A stretch of DNA of 45,166 bases, taken from positions 1-45,166 of the forward strand of contig NZ_CACZDK010000028.1 in the NCBI RefSeq assembly GCF_902779965.1. The letters are read 5' to 3'. A model generated the notes under the pieces. It worked only from the letters and a program-made list of their open reading frames with translations. It was not told the origin of the DNA and did no database searches. Positions within the stretch are counted from its first letter, which is position 1; each line of letters begins with the position of its first letter. The position numbers and the translations under genes are program-made. Below are positions 6,171-45,166 of this stretch, in pieces. Source of the stretch: Fibrobacter succinogenes (lineage in GTDB: Bacteria; Fibrobacterota; Fibrobacteria; Fibrobacterales; Fibrobacteraceae).

Positions 6171-7655
6171 CTATGTATAAGTTGCGTATGAGTCCTTAAT
6201 ATTCACGTTCGTTATCTTCAATGTGCACGTACCGCTGTAGTCCCCATAAATTGACCGAGCTCCAATGCATAGGCCATAGCCCATGATAACCTGACCGCTC
6301 TGCAAGTATCCGGTTATATGGAGATGGCCGCGCAAATGACCGCCTACACCCTGGCCAGATACGGTCGCAAAGGCGAATATACGGCCGTCGTTGGTGGCTA
6401 TGGCTGTTTGCGGGGTTCCTGCCATCAAAGTGGATGCCAGGCAGAAAACAACGCCGATTGACGATGTGCTGTTGGTTGCAACAATATCATAGTCAAAATC
6501 AACTTCAATAAGGTCATGATAAGATCCCATCGATTGACTTGTGAGCGCATTTAAATACCCACTCTGCGATTTTCTGCCTGCGATTGAGAATGCTGTCTGG
6601 GACAAATCAAGATATGTGTCGGGGTCATTGTAAGTCATGTATGGAGCGCCGACTTGCTGTATGCGTGTACCTACGCCAAGTCCGTAAGACTTATAAGTGA
6701 GTTCTACGTACTTACGATTACCTATAGTTGCATCATCGCTCTTTATCGCTGCGCCGGATAAAACGGTAATTGAGGATCCTGGATACAACGTCCCGCCACC
6801 GCCATTAACTAGCTTTGCATTACAGACGTAAGTTGACTTTATTTCAGAGCCCTCCCCGTCATTCGTAGCGTTTGTCGCGTTGGCAGCACTCCCAGCCGTG
6901 TTAGCGGAACCAGCAGTTGCAGCTACCCCTGCATTGTCTGCATAGTACGGAGAAAGAGTCGTTACATCCCATCCCGCACTCGTACACTTCACCTGCAGAA
7001 TTGAGCCTCTTGCATTAACGTCGCCGTAGGAGTCTCTAGGCATATTGAAATAGAAGGCGACTATAGCGCCTCCGCTGCCGAACTCAACATAGGACAACGG
7101 AACGATAGCCTCAGCAGAGTTGAATTCTGAACTTCCTCCACCCAATCCAACCGCGACACAGATCTTCTTACCTTCGCCGCGACCGTCGCCGCGAGCATTT
7201 GTCATTGCGGTAAATTCGGAAATCACTCCGTACTGCGCGACGTACATATCGGCGTTAGGAGCAAGCCTTGAATCGTTGCCCTCGCAGAACGTGTTCGCCG
7301 AAGAGCCGAACGAACCTGCCTGAACTACGCCTCCAGTTCCAGTGATTAGAGGCTTGTTCGCCGTAGTTCCGACCTTGCCTGCAGATGTAATGTTCCCGTG
7401 TCCGTGCGTATTAGGCGACACGTCCACGCCGGTCACCTTGAGCGACTGTGCGTCAAGCGAATCGGCCATGCGGTCACCGATGTTCGAATTAGCTACCTGC
7501 TGCTCGACGGATGAAAGTCGACTTTCAAGCTCGACCAGCGCTCTAGCCGATACCATACCGTTGTCTACAAGCTTCTGGACTACAAGATTTGTAAGCTTTT
7601 CAAACGTTTCGCCTTTAATCGCGTCATTATTGTAATCTTCTGGAGTTATCGGCAT
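6171..7655 (-). CDS. Large tail fibre / receptor-binding protein
   Basis: About 494 residues. N-terminal MPITPEDYNNDAIKG is a fibre attachment module identical to that of the 59-residue protein at 10741-10920. A coiled coil follows (about 18-55), then a GDRMADSLDAQSLKV linker also seen in the 10932-12134 fibre, low-complexity Gly/Ser/Ala/Asn repeats (SANTAGSAANATNATN) and a C-terminal beta-rich domain of about 200 residues. Probable host-recognition fibre. ATG at 7655 (with AAGGTGAGG upstream) is preferred to the GTG one codon earlier. It overlaps the reverse transcriptase stop (TGATG). Confidence 0.8.
   Translation of the reverse strand: MPITPEDYNNDAIKGETFEKLTNLVVQKLVDNGMVSARALVELESRLSSVEQQVANSNIGDRMADSLDAQSLKVTGVDVSPNTHGHGNITSAGKVGTTANKPLITGTGGVVQAGSFGSSANTFCEGNDSRLAPNADMYVAQYGVISEFTAMTNARGDGRGEGKKICVAVGLGGGSSEFNSAEAIVPLSYVEFGSGGAIVAFYFNMPRDSYGDVNARGSILQVKCTSAGWDVTTLSPYYADNAGVAATAGSANTAGSAANATNATNDGEGSEIKSTYVCNAKLVNGGGGTLYPGSSITVLSGAAIKSDDATIGNRKYVELTYKSYGLGVGTRIQQVGAPYMTYNDPDTYLDLSQTAFSIAGRKSQSGYLNALTSQSMGSYHDLIEVDFDYDIVATNSTSSIGVVFCLASTLMAGTPQTAIATNDGRIFAFATVSGQGVGGHLRGHLHITGYLQSGQVIMGYGLCIGARSIYGDYSGTCTLKITNVNIKDSYATYT
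7612..7655. repeat. 44-bp direct repeat, downstream copy (brackets the DGR)
   Basis: Bases 7612-7655 equal 10877-10920 without mismatch. Both copies encode the first 14-15 residues of a fibre gene from its ATG. The two copies bracket the DGR cassette (RT, TR, avd, target and VR), 3,265 bp apart. Confidence 0.95.
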
Positions 7656-8836
7656 CACAACCTCACCTTGTACTTGCGCCGAAGCACCGCACGAAAACCG
7701 TAGCGGGCACGCAGCGCAAAGCAGTTCTTCTTGTCATTCCATTGCAAATACCGCCTAAACGATGTCAGCACTTCACGCCTGAATCGCTCGGCGACATTCC
7801 GCATATCCTTTGTCCTCAAAATCCCGACGTAGGTATTCATCGAAGAAAGTAGTCGCGCAGTTTTCCACTGCACGTTCCGAGCATGCTTCCATTCATTGAT
7901 TTTCGCAAAAGCCCGACAGACCGTTCCGTTGTCGGCATACTCGCGATCGAACTTCACCCTGCTACCTAGTATATGTACACCCTTCGAATAGTGCTGGCAG
8001 TAGAACTTCCGTTCATTCAGCCGTACCTTCAAAGCCGAAAGCCTTGAGCGAATCTCCGGCATCATCGAGAGGAATTTCGCCTTGTCGGTAGTCACGATGT
8101 AGATGTCGTCAACGAAGCCAACAACACGCAGGAAGCCGAAAGTCTCCAGCCATTTCACGACATTGTTGATGTAGTGACCCATGGCGTTTTGCCAGCAAAG
8201 AAATCCTATCGCGCCGCCAGTTCCCACCGGCTTGTTGAACAGGCTCTTTTCCGGAGCAATCGCGGACCAGTTCGAACGCGGTACGTACACTTTGCAGTTC
8301 CTCGCAGGGTCAGCCCGCATGCAGGATTCCATCATGTACATGATGTCGGCCTCGTCATCTCCGATGTAGTAACGGTCGATAATGTCCAACTGCTGCGCAA
8401 GCGCAATCTCGACATCCGCGTTAGGGAAATAGCCCTTGAGGTCCATATGGACTATCCAGGCGTCACGCGTGTAGTTGCAGGTCATCTCGCGCACGTCCTC
8501 GCGGAAGCGAGCGATACAGGCGTGAAGGCCCTTGCCCTTGCGGTTGTTGTAGGTTCGGTCCGAAAGCACGTCCTCGTATATCGGGCGCAGCTTGCGGTCT
8601 AGGTAGTGATGCACGACACGCACGTACATCGCAGTGGCGAAAATCTCCCTCGCCTTGGGGCTAAAAACGACGAAGGCATAGTTCGGGGTAGTATCGAGCC
8701 TACGCCCGTTCAGGTCATTGCACAGACGGACGAGAGACTTTTCAAAGCACATCTCGAACAGTACCGCGTCTCTCGAGCGGCGCTTGTTGCTACGCGCAAC
8801 GAAATAAGTCTCTAGCAATTCATCTAGCAATACCAT
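7655..8836 (-). CDS. Diversity-generating retroelement reverse transcriptase
   Basis: 393 residues from the ATG at 8836. RT motifs are visible: VHMDLKGYFPN (about 129-139, catalytic D132) and the YxDD-type box FVDDIYIV (241-248, D243/D244). The DGR hallmark (I/V/L)GxxxSQ appears as IGFLCWQ (210-216), with Trp in place of Ser. The enzyme would copy the template repeat with errors at adenine and place the product in the variable region. An in-frame extension to 9004 would translate the template repeat itself as poly-Asn and is rejected. The stop overlaps the next fibre ATG. Confidence 0.93.
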   Translation of the reverse strand: MVLLDELLETYFVARSNKRRSRDAVLFEMCFEKSLVRLCNDLNGRRLDTTPNYAFVVFSPKAREIFATAMYVRVVHHYLDRKLRPIYEDVLSDRTYNNRKGKGLHACIARFREDVREMTCNYTRDAWIVHMDLKGYFPNADVEIALAQQLDIIDRYYIGDDEADIMYMMESCMRADPARNCKVYVPRSNWSAIAPEKSLFNKPVGTGGAIGFLCWQNAMGHYINNVVKWLETFGFLRVVGFVDDIYIVTTDKAKFLSMMPEIRSRLSALKVRLNERKFYCQHYSKGVHILGSRVKFDREYADNGTVCRAFAKINEWKHARNVQWKTARLLSSMNTYVGILRTKDMRNVAERFRREVLTSFRRYLQWNDKKNCFALRARYGFRAVLRRKYKVRL

Positions 8837-8863
8837 ACTATCCGCCGAACGGCCTGCATTAGT

Positions 8864-8966
8864 CAAGTTCGCGACCGACAACGCCCGATTGTTGTTGTTC
8901 AGGTTGTTGTTGCCGTTGAAATTCCCGTTGTTGTTCAAATTCCAGCCATTGGAGCGGGAACGGACA
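8864..8966 (-). repeat. DGR template repeat (TR)
   Basis: The 103-bp TR lies between the avd stop (8994) and the RT start (8836). On the minus strand it is rich in AAC codons (13 Asn-type codons in the target frame), the usual TR design that yields many amino acids when A is mutated. It aligns base for base with the VR at 9524-9626 (offset 660). All 19 differences are at TR adenines (about 30 in total). Confidence 0.95.
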
Positions 8967-8993
8967 AAGGGAACCGCCGCAGCCGAAGCTGCA

Positions 8994-9452
8994 TCAAGGC
9001 GCACTGCCGGAACTGGTATTCATGATACCGTCGCCTCCTCTTAACTGTTCTTGCATGCCGGAACGACGGCCATTGTTTGATGCCGCCGTTGACCGTACTT
9101 CGCGGGCGATCCTTTCTCGCCACGCGATTATGCCATCGTCAATTCTCTGTATATATTCGTATGATTCTACGCACTTTTTTCCGGGCACCACCTTCTTGTC
9201 GATACACAGCCGCATCAGGCCTTTCAGTACCTCGAAATGCGCGAGGAACCTGTCCGTGTGAACCACCTTCTCGTTTCCGCGCAACTTGTAAGAAAGAGTG
9301 AACTCAACAAGCATCGCAGTCGACGCGTCAAGGATTCTGTCGCCGAGAACGGCCCTGTCGCGTTTTGGAATCGAAAACCGCAGACCGTACACGATACCAA
9401 CCAGCTTGTAGGTATCCACGTATATCGGAGTATCGACAACTTTCTTTGACAC
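8994..9452 (-). CDS. avd: DGR accessory variability determinant (Avd)
   Basis: 152 residues, mainly helical and basic (TYKLVGIVYGLRFSIPKRDRAVLGDRI and RFLAHFEVLKGLMRLCIDKK segments), matching the Avd four-helix-bundle family; the last roughly 25 residues are a disordered tail. Avd forms a basic pentamer that binds RT and TR RNA during mutagenic homing. The start is GTG at 9452, preceded by AAAAAAGGA. Position between target and TR/RT is the classic DGR order. Confidence 0.88.
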   Translation of the reverse strand: MSKKVVDTPIYVDTYKLVGIVYGLRFSIPKRDRAVLGDRILDASTAMLVEFTLSYKLRGNEKVVHTDRFLAHFEVLKGLMRLCIDKKVVPGKKCVESYEYIQRIDDGIIAWRERIAREVRSTAASNNGRRSGMQEQLRGGDGIMNTSSGSAP

Positions 9453-9476
9453 TTTCGAGATCCTTTTTTAGGTGCG

Positions 9477-9499
9477 GGCGCGGCTTCAAAGGCCGCGCC
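9477..9499. other. GC-rich hairpin just downstream of the VR
   Basis: GGCGCGGC (9477-9484) and GCCGCGCC (9492-9499) form an 8-bp perfect stem with a 7-nt loop, 15 nt beyond the target stop codon. In the Bordetella phage BPP-1 DGR, a similar hairpin/cruciform next to the VR stimulates homing. There is no T tract on the minus strand, so a terminator role is unlikely. Confidence 0.7.
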
Positions 9500-9514
9500 G
9501 AATAAGGTGGAAGG

Positions 9515-10732
9515 TTAAATATCCAAGAGCGCGACCGACAACGCCCGATAGTAGCTGGACAGGGAGTAGTAGCCGTAGAAAAGCCCGTTGGAGCCCAAAT
9601 TCCAGCCATAGGAGCGGGAACGGACACAGGGAAGCCAATAGCGCGAATCGTTCGAGTTCGTGTTGAGCTGTAGCGTGCTGCCGCCGATTTTCGACAGCGT
9701 CTTGTTGAAAACGTCGGCAGCAGGACTCTCAAGAGTGTACTTAACATGCCTGAAAACATCCTGCACGATGCCTAATCCGGGCTGGAACCAGTCGCCACGG
9801 CGAAGTCCGTCAACATTCGCGAACTGACCGTAGGAACCCCATGTCAGGTTATGGTTGTAGGCGAATTGCGCCACGCGGAAGAATGCGGAATTGTCGGCCT
9901 CGTTCGCATCGACAAGCACCTTCGTCGCAGCCTTGCCGTCCTGGAAGACGACGGAATTGCTCGCCAGCGAGCACGGATACGCAAGCCTGCGAGAATCCAA
10001 ATATTTGCGGAAGCCCGCCTCGCCTGCACCAAACTTGGCGATAGTTTCGGCCACTTTGTACGTCGTGGCGTCATGAGCCGTAATGCTGTACGCCGCAGGA
10101 CCGAGTGTCAGACCCCAGTCGGCCCCATTCAGAAAGGCGTTTTGCAACCCGTCCGTACCGCCGTTCCAGCCTTCGTTCTTGCTCGCGCCGCCACGACCAG
10201 TGAGCCACGCGAACAGCACGTCTACATTGCACGTGGCGCGGAAGCCGACAAGACCCTGCGTGTCCTTGGCGTCTCCAGCCGTGATTTTAGCAAGGTCGGC
10301 ATCGGAAAGCTTGCCGGACGGAATCGTGTAAGAGGAAGAAGTCGCACCGGTAAAGAACGGCCCTGCGGCACCGATGTCCTTGTACAGCACGTAGCACTTG
10401 TTTCCGTGCACGCTCGCCACGACACCAAGCGCGGTAAATCCCGCCGCCGTCATCTTGGCATTGTCCACGGTATCACCAGAAACAAACGTCACAGAGCCTT
10501 CCGTAACGCCACTGCCAGGTGCGGCCGCGCTGTACACGCTCGTTGTCGGCACGTACACCGCGTCGCCCTGCTTGGGGCGCTTAACAACGACGTTCACGCC
10601 GTCGAAGTGAACCTTGCCGGAGTCGGCCTCGAGCGAAACGGTACTCTTGCCGAGAGCGGCTCGCGCAGACGCGTCAGCGGCATACGCCGCTGCGTCAGTA
10701 TACTTGTTGATATATTTAGTGTCTAAAGCCAT
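9515..10732 (-). CDS. DGR target protein: variable receptor-binding tail protein
   Basis: 405 residues. N-terminus (1-60) is an Ala-rich attachment helix plus beta segment. The middle has a Gly/Asp-rich domain, and the C-terminus contains DGLRRGDWFQPGLG and the variable lectin-like region RYWLPCVRSRSYGWNL onward (VR residues about 369-403), typical of C-type-lectin-fold DGR targets. Variable residues are Tyr, Gly, Ser, Asn and Leu where TR encodes Asn. It lies among tail fibres, so it probably determines host receptor specificity. ATG at 10732 has GTAGGAGACATT upstream. Confidence 0.9.
   Translation of the reverse strand: MALDTKYINKYTDAAAYAADASARAALGKSTVSLEADSGKVHFDGVNVVVKRPKQGDAVYVPTTSVYSAAAPGSGVTEGSVTFVSGDTVDNAKMTAAGFTALGVVASVHGNKCYVLYKDIGAAGPFFTGATSSSYTIPSGKLSDADLAKITAGDAKDTQGLVGFRATCNVDVLFAWLTGRGGASKNEGWNGGTDGLQNAFLNGADWGLTLGPAAYSITAHDATTYKVAETIAKFGAGEAGFRKYLDSRRLAYPCSLASNSVVFQDGKAATKVLVDANEADNSAFFRVAQFAYNHNLTWGSYGQFANVDGLRRGDWFQPGLGIVQDVFRHVKYTLESPAADVFNKTLSKIGGSTLQLNTNSNDSRYWLPCVRSRSYGWNLGSNGLFYGYYSLSSYYRALSVALLDI
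9524..9626 (-). repeat. DGR variable region (VR)
   Basis: This is the C-terminal end of the target gene. 19 mismatches to TR lie at 9528, 9529, 9550, 9553, 9555, 9558, 9559, 9564, 9565, 9568, 9571, 9577, 9582, 9583, 9591, 9592, 9594, 9595 and 9610, each where the minus-strand TR has A. The block 9531-9547, invariant and GC-rich, is the candidate IMH. The first non-adenine mismatch, at 9627, marks the upstream limit. Confidence 0.95.
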
Positions 10733-10740
10733 AATGTCTC

Positions 10741-10920
10741 CTACGAGTTAGGCAAAACGATCGAAATGTTGTTAGCGATAATCATAGAGTTCGCGGAATC
10801 GTACTCAATATCGAGTATATCCTGCTTTTCTTTGACCTTATTCAAGACATTTTTTGTCAACTGTTCTAGCTGCTGACCTTTAATCGCGTCATTATTGTAA
10901 TCTTCTGGAGTTATCGGCAT
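10741..10920 (-). CDS. 59-residue fibre-attachment protein or remnant
   Basis: ATG at 10920 has an AAAGGAGGATGAT upstream region. Residues 1-15 (MPITPEDYNNDAIKG) are identical to the N-terminus of the 6171-7655 fibre and the next 15 are similar (QQLEQLTKNVLNKV against ETFEKLTNLVVQKL). It then ends after a short beta-like stretch. It is either a small baseplate adaptor or the 5' stump left when the DGR cassette entered a fibre gene. It contains the upstream copy of the 44-bp repeat. Confidence 0.75.
   Translation of the reverse strand: MPITPEDYNNDAIKGQQLEQLTKNVLNKVKEKQDILDIEYDSANSMIIANNISIVLPNS
10877..10920. repeat. 44-bp direct repeat, upstream copy (brackets the DGR)
   Basis: Identical to 7612-7655. 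Together the copies enclose the complete DGR with its target gene. Recombination between them would remove 3,265 bp and leave one intact fibre start. Confidence 0.95.
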
Positions 10921-10931
10921 ATCATCCTCCT

Positions 10932-25789: not shown

Positions 25790-26476
25790 TTATTCGTTGA
25801 CAGTGCGCGGGAAGATTCCAATCTTGCGCAGAGCCTTCAAGAAATTGTTGATGGAATCGCCTTCGGCGAATTTGAGTTCGGCAACGTCCACTTCGCCCGT
25901 AAAGGCGATAGCGCCAGACTTACCCGCCTTGGTATCTTCAAGCAAGACGCCGACCGGATCCTGAAGCGCAGCAGTGCCACTGTCGGAATCGACGATTTCG
26001 AAGAGTTCATCACCGACGGACTGGCCAATGGTTTCGACAGCAACCGCACCAGCTTCGACACCAGCACCGTCGCCAACCGTAACAACAATCACCATGTCAT
26101 TACCGGCAAAACCAGTTTCCTTCCATTCGATAAGAAGCTTGCCTGCGGAATTGGTGGCAGCCACAATGTTCTTCAGAACATTGTCAGCATTGATTGCCGC
26201 CTTGAGACCGGCAACTTCATCAGCCAAGGTCGTAGAAGCAATCGTGTAGGTTACTTCGTTGCCATTGACAGACAGCTTGACAGTCTTGGTAGCAACCGGA
26301 GTTCCGGTAAAGGTTACAGACTTCTTTGCCTTCGTAGCAGAGGTAGCCACGCCACGGGAGGCAAGCACAGAACCGGCCTGAAGGTCGGCACCGTAAATGA
26401 TACCGGAGCCGATATTGCGAGGCTGAGTGTTACCTGCAAAGATTTTCTTGTTTTCAAAAACAATCGGTTCAAACAT
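25790..26476 (-). CDS. Head decoration protein D-like, with inserted beta domain
   Basis: 228 residues from the ATG at 26476 (GGAGG 5 nt upstream; a GTG two codons earlier lies too close). The N-terminus (NTQPRNIGSGIIYGADLQAGSVLA) and the C-terminus (DPVGVLLEDTKAGKSGAIAFTGEVDVAELKF...FLKALRKIGIF) match lambda gpD-type decoration proteins. Between them residues about 50-135 hold an extra domain (TVKLSVNGNEVTYTIAS; LKAAINADNVLKNIVAATN) resembling the beta domain inserted in the sheath. Longer than the usual 110-130 residues. Confidence 0.85.
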   Translation of the reverse strand: MFEPIVFENKKIFAGNTQPRNIGSGIIYGADLQAGSVLASRGVATSATKAKKSVTFTGTPVATKTVKLSVNGNEVTYTIASTTLADEVAGLKAAINADNVLKNIVAATNSAGKLLIEWKETGFAGNDMVIVVTVGDGAGVEAGAVAVETIGQSVGDELFEIVDSDSGTAALQDPVGVLLEDTKAGKSGAIAFTGEVDVAELKFAEGDSINNFLKALRKIGIFPRTVNE

Positions 26477-26488
26477 TTTCACCTCCTT

Positions 26489-35518: not shown

Positions 35519-36727
35519 CTATAACTTAATTTTAGACTCGATGTATTGCAGACTGGCAAGACCGAAAGGTTTCGCTTTTTCCTTACCACCTACGATTTCG
35601 TTGGCGGCCGCAAGGAACAACGGCTTCTTTGACGGATCGATTTTTACTGAATAATCGCGAACATACTTTTTGAACGTGTTTAACTCAACTTTTATTTTTT
35701 TGCCAATTAAAACCAAAACCTCATCTGAGCAATCATGACCAGATTTTTTTAGATAATCACAAATAACATTTCTCTTTTTTGCAGTAAAAGCAGAATCTGC
35801 ACGAGCCAAATAAATCAGTATCGTAAGCTCTTCTTCACAATCTTTCTGTAAACAAACAGCTTTACCCTCGTCACTGTTTAAAAATTTGTCATTAAGATAC
35901 TTGCCAAAATCCTCTATTCCGTCAACAGATATGATTTTATTAAACGCTATATCGTAAAGAGTCCCGTTTGTATTTTCCAAAGAAATGTAAAAACCTTCGG
36001 AGCGAGTGATCCAAACAGATCCACAACTAAATTTTCTGGTAATAAAGCCATCGTCATAATCAGCAATTTTCATCACGAATACTTCGTTAATTTCGAATCT
36101 ATCCATTTCGTCCAACAACGGCGAAAAAGAAGAAAAGGAAAAACCATTCCATTCTTCAGGATTAAACATGTCCGATGGTTTATATCTATTATTAAATTTT
36201 TTATTGAAATACCAACGCAAATCGCCATAAAACTCATCCGCGTTGATAACTTCACTAGTCTCCAAATCTACACATTCAACGATTCTCGGAACATAAAAAG
36301 TTCTCTCATCACCTCTCAAAAAGCAATGAGCTTCTATAACCCTTCCGTCAAATTTTCTAACAAATATTTTTCTAACGCTTTCATTACCTTCCGCGTCTCT
36401 ATACTTGATTTCGTAATTAGGTTTTAAATTTCCTCTTTTACTCACGGAATCAACTGCAATAACATCCACCGCTTTACTAGAAGATTTTGGGACATCTACC
36501 TTTTCAATTTTAGAATCATCATCTTTAGCATTATCAAGCTTTTTGCTATACGAACGGCACTTCACCGTCAAGAAAATAAAGAAAGCTGAAAAGACAATAC
36601 CAACTACAACGGCACTAGGTTCTTTTTTGTCAATAGCGACAGCAACTGTAGCCAAGGCAAACAAGATATCAAGTATCAGCAACAAACAGAACAAAACCAA
36701 AGACACGATGTACTTAATTTTCTTCAT
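35519..36727 (-). CDS. Membrane-anchored WYL and TerB-like domain protein
   Basis: 402 residues from ATG at 36727 (GGAGGTTTGGTT upstream). Two N-terminal transmembrane helices (about 5-30 and 38-58). Residues about 95-165 match a WYL domain: YEIKYRDAEGNESVRKIFVRKFDG, VIEAHCFLRGDERTFYVPRIVECVD. A middle region is unassigned. About 290-345 (EEELTILIYLARADSAFTAKKRNVICDYLKKSG) is TerB-like. WYL domains sense nucleic-acid or nucleotide ligands; TerB occurs in stress and defence proteins. AT-rich codon use differs from the structural genes. Likely a lysogeny-expressed accessory or defence protein. Confidence 0.7.
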   Translation of the reverse strand: MKKIKYIVSLVLFCLLLILDILFALATVAVAIDKKEPSAVVVGIVFSAFFIFLTVKCRSYSKKLDNAKDDDSKIEKVDVPKSSSKAVDVIAVDSVSKRGNLKPNYEIKYRDAEGNESVRKIFVRKFDGRVIEAHCFLRGDERTFYVPRIVECVDLETSEVINADEFYGDLRWYFNKKFNNRYKPSDMFNPEEWNGFSFSSFSPLLDEMDRFEINEVFVMKIADYDDGFITRKFSCGSVWITRSEGFYISLENTNGTLYDIAFNKIISVDGIEDFGKYLNDKFLNSDEGKAVCLQKDCEEELTILIYLARADSAFTAKKRNVICDYLKKSGHDCSDEVLVLIGKKIKVELNTFKKYVRDYSVKIDPSKKPLFLAAANEIVGGKEKAKPFGLASLQYIESKIKL

Positions 36728-36753
36728 AACCAAACCTCCGTTTTTTACTAGGC

Positions 36754-37122
36754 TCACTTAATCCCGTTCTTTATACGCTCATCAAGTTCGATCATTGCTT
36801 TTTTGACAGCTTCCAGGAACTTCGGGTCCTGGTAGTCGATAGGCGTATTGTCGGGATTTGGCAAAATTTTTACTTGCGCATTTTTAGCCTCTTCAAGCAC
36901 AGCTTTTTTTACGCAATCAGCAACTTCTTTGCCGAACATTTCTTCAAGCGTCATTCCAGCAAGAAGCAATTTCGCGCAATTTTCTCTGGTAACATCAGAG
37001 ACATACGTATTCCATTTCCCAATAGCGCCACGATTAACGCCTATTTTGTCGGCTAACTGTTGCTGAGTAAGACCTTTACGGTCCATAAATTCTTGCAACT
37101 TAACGCGCTCTAGCATAGCCAT
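36754..37122 (-). CDS. XRE-family repressor-like protein B
   Basis: 122 residues. HTH_3 at about 7-60: LQEFMDRKGLTQQQLADKIGVNRGAIGKWNTYVSDVTRENCAKLLLAGMTLEEMF. The C-terminal tail PDNTPIDYQDPKFLEAVKK recurs in the 35376-35501 remnant. No autocleavage peptidase domain, so SOS-type cleavage is not expected. Divergent from the early operon at 37268 with repeats between them: the probable lysogeny repressor. Confidence 0.8.
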   Translation of the reverse strand: MAMLERVKLQEFMDRKGLTQQQLADKIGVNRGAIGKWNTYVSDVTRENCAKLLLAGMTLEEMFGKEVADCVKKAVLEEAKNAQVKILPNPDNTPIDYQDPKFLEAVKKAMIELDERIKNGIK

Positions 37123-44679: not shown

Positions 44680-45108
44680 ATGCCGATTGCAAAGATCAAG
44701 ACTGAAGAAGAACGTGCAAGGCTTGACCGCATCTTTGCGGAGGTGGAAGCCGCCGAGCGCGGCGAAACAGCACCGGAAGCCGACTCCAGGACTCAACAGC
44801 AGATCGACGAAGACAACCGACGCGCAAAAATCAAGCGCCTCGCAAACCTCGAAACAAAGGAGTTCATTGGGAACGTGAAGGCCAACATAGGCAACGGAGC
44901 TTTCACGACGCGTTGGGAAAAAATTTTGTCGCAGTTCATCATGGACCGAATCGCGCCGATGAATGACGAATTGAACACGCTCCGGAACTTTGCCACAGCC
45001 GTTGACATTCGCCTTCAGAAGGCCGAAAAAGCAGCCAAAGAACAAGAAAATCACCATTACTATAAAATCTTTGCAGAAGGCGTCAAAACGCTTCTGAATT
45101 CAATCTAA
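44680..45108 (+). CDS. Hypothetical helical protein spanning the circle junction
   Basis: 142 residues, helical and charged (EEERARLDRIFAEVEAAERGE; FTTRWEKILSQFIMDRIAPMNDELNTLRNFATAVDIRLQKAEKAAKEQ). AGGAGACGTAATC before the ATG. Its last 13 codons reappear at 1-41. No family recognised. Confidence 0.7.
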   Translation: MPIAKIKTEEERARLDRIFAEVEAAERGETAPEADSRTQQQIDEDNRRAKIKRLANLETKEFIGNVKANIGNGAFTTRWEKILSQFIMDRIAPMNDELNTLRNFATAVDIRLQKAEKAAKEQENHHYYKIFAEGVKTLLNSI

Positions 45109-45166
45109 AAGGAACACTGATGCAGACAATCGAAGAATATAAGGAATACGCCAAACAGCTCGAAGT
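45068..45166. repeat. Terminal direct repeat (right copy), circular junction
   Basis: Identical to 1-99. See the left copy. The last 47 bases (45120-45166) are the start of the coiled-coil gene at 53-340. Confidence 0.93.

Follow-up and report, generated by a model that had tools for sequence, protein, structure and literature searches.

Organization of the locus

The window, i.e. the whole stretch of DNA analysed here (45,166 nucleotides), is one entire contig and carries an exact 99-bp direct repeat at its two ends (positions 1-99 and 45068-45166). Taking this repeat as an assembler k-mer overlap, we most likely have before us a phage genome closed into a circle, of about 45,067 bp, and not a prophage flanked by host DNA. 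Profile matches identify genes for a tyrosine integrase, terminase, portal, head protease and major head protein, as well as tail genes for the sheath, tube, tape measure, Gp48, hub and baseplate J/baseplate proteins. The presence of the integrase together with the head and sheath/baseplate genes therefore indicates a temperate contractile-tailed phage, whose host genus is Fibrobacter. These matches also bear out the placement, in the preliminary description of this DNA, of the target gene within the tail-fibre region of a contractile phage. The cassette, a diversity-generating retroelement (DGR), lies on the minus strand in the order target gene with variable repeat (VR), hairpin, Avd, template repeat (TR) and reverse transcriptase (RT), and consists of the following features:

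9515-10732 (minus): target gene of tail-fibre/receptor-binding type, 405 aa, an ORF with the VR at its 3' end
9524-9626 (minus): VR, 82% identical to TR over 110 nt; 19 differences in the 103-bp alignment, all at TR adenines
9530-9548 (minus): GC-rich block TCGGGCGTTGTCGGTCGCG, identical to TR 8870-8888, counterpart of the IMH GC element
9528-9529 (minus): fixed VR mark CT (AA in TR at 8868-8869), presumed edge of information transfer
9477-9499 (minus): hairpin/cruciform GGCGCGGC-CTTTGAA-GCCGCGCC, just downstream of the target stop codon, candidate homing-site element
8994-9452 (minus): Avd accessory protein, 152 aa, matched by phrog_3206
8864-8966 (minus): TR, aligned to VR over 103 bp
8837-8863 (minus): spacer between TR and the RT start codon, 27 nt
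7655-8836 (minus): DGR-type RT, 393 aa (RVT_1, phrog_1423, 8ub7 family), with motif 4 IGFLCWQ and motif 5 FVDD
8687-8836 (minus): first ~50 RT codons, with lowered synonymous divergence, possibly a template RNA 3' arm within coding sequence

The RT is matched by RVT_1 (E 3e-11), by phrog_1423 (E 7e-43) and by the PDB 8ub7 family (E 6e-16), which comprises the DGR RT structures 8ub7-8ube. Avd is matched by the phrog_3206 Avd profile with an E-value of 3e-12, while its Pfam bAvd (E 4e-5) and NCBIfam NF033474 matches are both under the cut-off. Avd is common in DGRs without being universal. Both frames are open and intact, and the RT retains the catalytic FVDD (8105-8116; the Trp codon of motif 4 is at 8192-8194). 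The classic DGR gene order of target, Avd and RT that had been proposed from the bare sequence is thus confirmed by the profile matches. In summary, an RT of the DGR clade adjoins TR, Avd is present, the VR occupies the 3' end of a target gene with a predicted C-type-lectin fold, and a GC-rich IMH block is followed by fixed mismatches to TR and then by a hairpin. The claim of a complete DGR holds for this anatomy, to which the 3' hairpin, the homing block and the atypical RT motif, absent from the preliminary description, are now added. Searches of the host genome found no second copy of TR or VR and no second RT match.

We also note some other features of the phage genome. Positions 7561-7664 and 10826-10929 form a direct repeat with 75% identity, which is the N-terminal fibre segment of the gene at 6171-7658, recurring in a small ORF (MPITPEDYNNDAIKG...) beside the target. 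The protein encoded at 25790-26482 (minus) is head-decoration-like, and its middle part matches a tail-sheath domain (phrog_165 and phrog_49). A 412-aa protein encoded at 35519-36757 (minus) gives a weak WYL-domain match, including to an RT-associated WYL model of a defence library, and is probably a phage regulator.

The target protein

The VR domain of DGR targets typically has a C-type-lectin fold, which is diversified in receptor-binding proteins. An AlphaFold model of the target built with 44 relatives (mean pLDDT 63.6, with some parts poor) shows a C-terminal C-type-lectin domain carrying the VR; it replaced an earlier model from 13 sequences, which was too poor (pLDDT 42.6) to be used. 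When the model was searched using VIA-align, the first match was 4eps with a Z-score of 14.2 and 3.3 Å over 188 residues, followed by the C-terminal domain of Legionella Lcl (8q4e; Z 9.7) and then by many animal C-type lectins (Z 5-7). The modelled fold of the target is that of a C-type lectin. At the other end of the protein, residues 7-45 align with the collagen XV trimerisation domain (Z 4.0), and the N-terminal ~40 aa as modelled resemble a trimerisation module. The target protein has no match in named phage records.

Differences between TR and VR

The ungapped alignment of TR (8864-8966) to VR (9524-9626) spans 103 bp. It contains 19 differences, each of them at an adenine of the minus-strand TR (A>T 11, A>C 5, A>G 3), a base that makes up 30 of the 103 positions in TR. 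If the differences fell at random, the chance of finding 19 out of 19 on adenine would be about (30/103)^19 = 7e-11. The differences fall in 13 Asn codons, which become Tyr, Gly, Ser or Leu codons in VR. The alignment, its adenine-only differences and the codon changes are all as they had been described previously.

Related contigs were collected from IMG/VR, and seven distinct VRs (those of the window, L002, L003, L023, L024, L026 and L029) were compared with TR. Among them, 28 of the 30 TR adenine columns are variable as against 5 of the 72 other columns (Fisher p 9e-18), and five of the seven VRs depart from TR solely at adenines, the exceptions being L003 and the orphan VR of L029. This alignment of VRs from related contigs had been set beforehand as a check on the DGR, and the bias to TR adenines is present. 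TR itself is identical in the window, L002 and L023 over the sequence available, and it is identical between the window and L002 even though the 3-kb segment shared by these two is 8% diverged; the L003 TR is one codon off. In the latter (L003 5863-5978, on a contig shared with L025), TR has AA>TC at one codon and is otherwise the same as the other TRs, and the cognate VR has GA at this place. The change came about either by mutation at adenines of the template itself or through VR reads that the assembly mixed in, and unless it stems from such a mix, it counts against the DGR reading because it breaks the constancy of TR.

The two adenine columns that do not vary are adjacent and form the AA of TR at 8868-8869, opposite the fixed CT of VR discussed below. 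With this pair left out, about 17 of 28 adenines have been truly hypermutated in the window. The 28 mutable adenines lie in 14 Asn codons, in which no stop codon can arise and 15 amino acids can be encoded at each, and they give access to about 10^16.9 DNA variants.

A fixed mark at the probable homing boundary

The AA of TR and the CT of VR at 9528-9529 lie directly 3' of the GC-rich TCGGGCGTTGTCGGTCGCG, and CT is fixed at this site in all seven related VRs, that of the window included. We surveyed 61 viral loci together with genome and phage loci and obtained 67 same-strand TR/VR pairs, by a detection that starts from stretches with mismatches only at A and is thereby biased towards A-specific pairs; only four of the 61 viral loci were without a pair, and three of these have little upstream sequence. 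The boundary mark was read as the first mismatch after the 3'-most identical TR/VR block. AA in TR against CT in VR is this first mismatch in 54 of the 67 pairs in ungapped alignment and in six more once a small TR/VR indel is allowed, and in L052 an additional A/G mismatch block comes first and the mark follows one base after it, giving a total of 61 out of 67 pairs. By comparison, only 7 of 312 upstream AA pairs read CT in VR. Beyond the AA/CT site, VR ceases to resemble TR within a few bases.

Based on these alignments, AA/CT is most likely the directionality mark or homing boundary of this lineage and would lie outside the transferred stretch. On this reading the mark, which is fixed in seven VRs and recurs in 61 of 67 pairs, should not be counted as hypermutation. 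The assertion that the differences are strictly adenine-directed thus stands for their location (19 of 19), whereas the assumption that all of them stem from mutagenesis does not, as 2 of the 19 make up this presumed boundary mark and probably did not arise by hypermutation. The mark offers a simple rule for locating the homing boundary and keeping it out of hypermutation counts.

The hairpin just after the target gene fits the homing hairpin described by Guo et al. (PMC3240598), save for its loop: the GRNA loop consensus of BPP-1-type hairpins, also reported for the hairpins of other phage DGRs (PMC3240598), is not seen in the window loop CTTTGAA. In many relatives, hairpins occur after VR at the same place with other stem sequences, for example GTGGCGGCT-CTTTGT-AGCCGCCAC.

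Two further observations come from the surveyed loci. Six pairs (L071, L076, L084, L087, L092 and L093) have a small TR/VR indel, which is of 3 nt in five of the six and lies within runs of Asn codons, so that VR length may vary by whole codons. Loci L038-L047, from other Fibrobacter genomes, hold a second, distant type of DGR whose TRs are longer, at up to ~200 bp, and whose VRs are more than 1 kb away, and their TR/VR pairs end without the AA/CT mark.

An RT clade with tryptophan in motif 4

According to DiGReF, (I/V/L)GxxxSQ in motif 4 is characteristic of DGR RTs without being strictly required, and the variants given there are SP, SH, NQ, PA, AQ and VQ, with WQ not among them (PMC3521204). 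The SQ dipeptide has been proposed as the cause of adenine-specific errors (PMC3521204). The RT of the window has IGFLCWQ, i.e. GxxxWQ in place of GxxxSQ, and because SQ is not treated as strictly required, this mismatch lowers its assignment to the SQ type and not its assignment to DGRs. Of the 73 RTs placed in a tree, nearly all adjoin their own TR/VR pair; 56 have WQ and 15 have SQ. All the WQ sequences fall in a group of 66 (support 100/98), inside which nine SQ sequences cluster together, and therefore one change of Ser to Trp and one reversion suffice to explain the distribution. In the motif-4 codons looked at, Trp is encoded by TGG and Ser by TCG, TCA or AGC.

When the TR/VR pairs were extended past the A-only seed, 785 of 794 mismatches faced adenine in 52 pairs outside the SQ group (nearly all of them WQ) and 180 of 183 in 12 SQ pairs, with no mutation-spectrum difference of note between the WQ and SQ RTs. 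Because about 99% of mismatches face adenine in WQ and SQ alike, the motif-4 serine is, as judged from these pairs found by seeding on A-only stretches, not needed for adenine specificity. This clade thus bears on the open question of which residues confine the errors of DGR RTs to adenines. In addition, motif-based detectors may miss WQ elements; for example, myDGR is reported to have missed a DGR element with SP (PMC11054128).

Spacing of TR and RT and the template RNA

TR and the RT gene are separated by 27 nt in the window as compared to 144 nt in BPP-1, and such close spacing is the rule within the clade. Comparisons at four-fold degenerate sites show differences in 13-17% of cases over the first 50 codons of the RT and in about 28-47% from codon 75 onwards, the pairs compared being not independent of each other. 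The short gap and the suppressed synonymous change over the first ~50 codons suggest that the RT gene overlaps the template RNA arm on which cDNA synthesis depends, though codon effects close to the start of the gene, or local recombination, may also play a part in the low synonymous change. A consensus RNA fold downstream of TR (RNAalifold) has an energy of -4.1 kcal/mol with almost no covariation and lends the overlap no support. We also considered reading TR as an N-terminal extension of the RT; the frame is open in the window and L002, but it contains stops in many relatives, and this reading was rejected.

With confidence somewhat short of even, we put forward a broader proposal: that these elements form a large clade of phage DGRs, most of it uncultured (in Fibrobacter and Bacteroidales phages), in which the motif-4 Ser changed to Trp once and reverted once with adenine specificity kept, and which has an AA/CT boundary code and a template RNA 3' arm in the RT coding sequence. 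With such a 3' arm, the template RNA and the RT mRNA would be one molecule. The general biology of DGRs is already known. For the WQ clade and for the AA/CT boundary, we found no earlier report in the literature searched, a coverage that leaves out most subscription journals.

Loss of the cassette in relatives

In L026 and L029 the target is kept and the Avd-TR-RT cassette is lost or absent, and the cassette is therefore dispensable. In L026 (13563-13702), the target is joined directly to the last RT codons across the 8-bp TTCGGCGC, of which the window has one copy at the hairpin and another at the RT end, with Avd, TR and RT deleted between the two copies; this junction lies about 120 bp from a contig end and is possibly an assembly artefact. 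L029 has an orphan VR-bearing target (742-1965) with lysis-type genes downstream and three non-A changes, and no matching TR is found within its contig. This target looks frozen after loss of the cassette.

Interpretation

We regard it as nearly certain that the temperate, contractile-tailed phage of Fibrobacter in the window carries a working DGR with a single target, which would diversify the lectin domain of a fibre protein. That TR and VR are instead an ordinary duplication, with the differences at adenines reflecting selection on an Asn-rich domain and not template-directed mutagenesis, has a negligible chance of being correct. TR is indeed rich in Asn codons and readable as protein, and the RT frame is open through it in the window, but many relatives lack this open frame, the repeats are accompanied by RT and Avd, all three alternative bases occur among the substitutions, and the comparison of variable columns across the seven VRs refutes such a duplication. 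It is also improbable, though less so, that the DGR is decayed or inactive, its TR/VR differences being relics of earlier homing and its VR by now evolving like any other gene. The close relatives L026 and L029, which keep the target without Avd, TR and RT, attest that such loss happens; however, the window retains intact RT and Avd frames with the catalytic FVDD, its TR/VR pair has no non-A difference compared to the three of the orphan VR, and its TR has stayed identical to that of L002 despite the divergence around it. The DGR of the window is probably active.

The AA/CT mark has its own alternative explanation, namely purifying selection for a Leu codon (CTY) in the last lectin strand, re-selected after each round of homing, in which case it would not be a homing mark at all. 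The VR codon at this site is Leu (CTC or CTT) nearly everywhere, and from an NNY codon Leu can be reached only as CTY. Yet none of the marked pairs shows Ile, Val or Phe at the site, the TR homology stops within a few bases of the mark, and in the corresponding 21-bp segment of BPP-1 five fixed TR/VR mismatches have been shown to set directionality (PMC3240598). We give selection for Leu perhaps one chance in four and favour a homing boundary.

In the DGR of the window as we read it, diversification would proceed by mutagenic retrohoming, in which cDNA is made, VR is replaced and TR stays unchanged; the cDNA step, the direction of transfer and receptor binding by the target are modelled on BPP-1. 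A transcript containing TR would be copied by the RT with Avd, and the RT would misincorporate mainly opposite template adenines. The cDNA would then replace the 3' end of the target gene, its entry taking place within the GC-rich block, next to the AA/CT mark, and the downstream hairpin serving as a recognition element; transfer would end by homology on the 5' side. Since the mutable adenines lie in the C-terminal lectin domain of the fibre protein, each round would be expected to yield phages with altered receptor binding.

Comparison with known systems

The DGR of Bordetella phage BPP-1 (mtd-avd-TR-brt, NC_005357) has the same order and orientation as that of the window, and Avd is present in both. 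In both, a receptor-binding gene ends in the VR, the changes upstream of a GC-rich block are confined to adenines, fixed TR/VR mismatches follow this block, and a hairpin with an 8-bp stem comes after VR (PMC3240598). They differ in motif 4 of the RT (WQ in the window, SQ in BPP-1), in the boundary mismatches (AA/CT in the window as against five in BPP-1, viz., C>A, T>C, A>T, C>G and C>A) and in the hairpin loop, which is the 7-nt CTTTGAA in the window as against the GRNA consensus of the BPP-1 type. Among named phage records, the nearest RTs are those of the Bacteroides phages F1, F2 and F4 (MT635598, MT806186 and MT806185, respectively) with 31-34% identity. These phages share Avd and a C-terminal VR with the window but, unlike it, have SQ in motif 4, and F2 and F4 are without the AA/CT mark.

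Hankyphage and other gut-phage DGRs resemble that of the window in having substitution-free TRs and adenine changes in Asn codons of VR across tropic variants (PMC6199706). The target of the Hankyphage-type DGR is likewise a C-type lectin, whereas Hankyphage itself differs from the phage of the window in its Mu-like transposase, flexible siphovirus tail and host (PMC6199706). The C-type-lectin fold predicted for the target is also common to the tentaclin/tgt2-type lectin targets and to the Bacteroides pilin 4EPS, whose surface β-hairpin has been likened to that of DGR targets (PMC10743442). In contrast to these proteins, the target of the window has its lectin domain at the C-terminus behind a fibre-type N-terminus, with no Ig domains seen.
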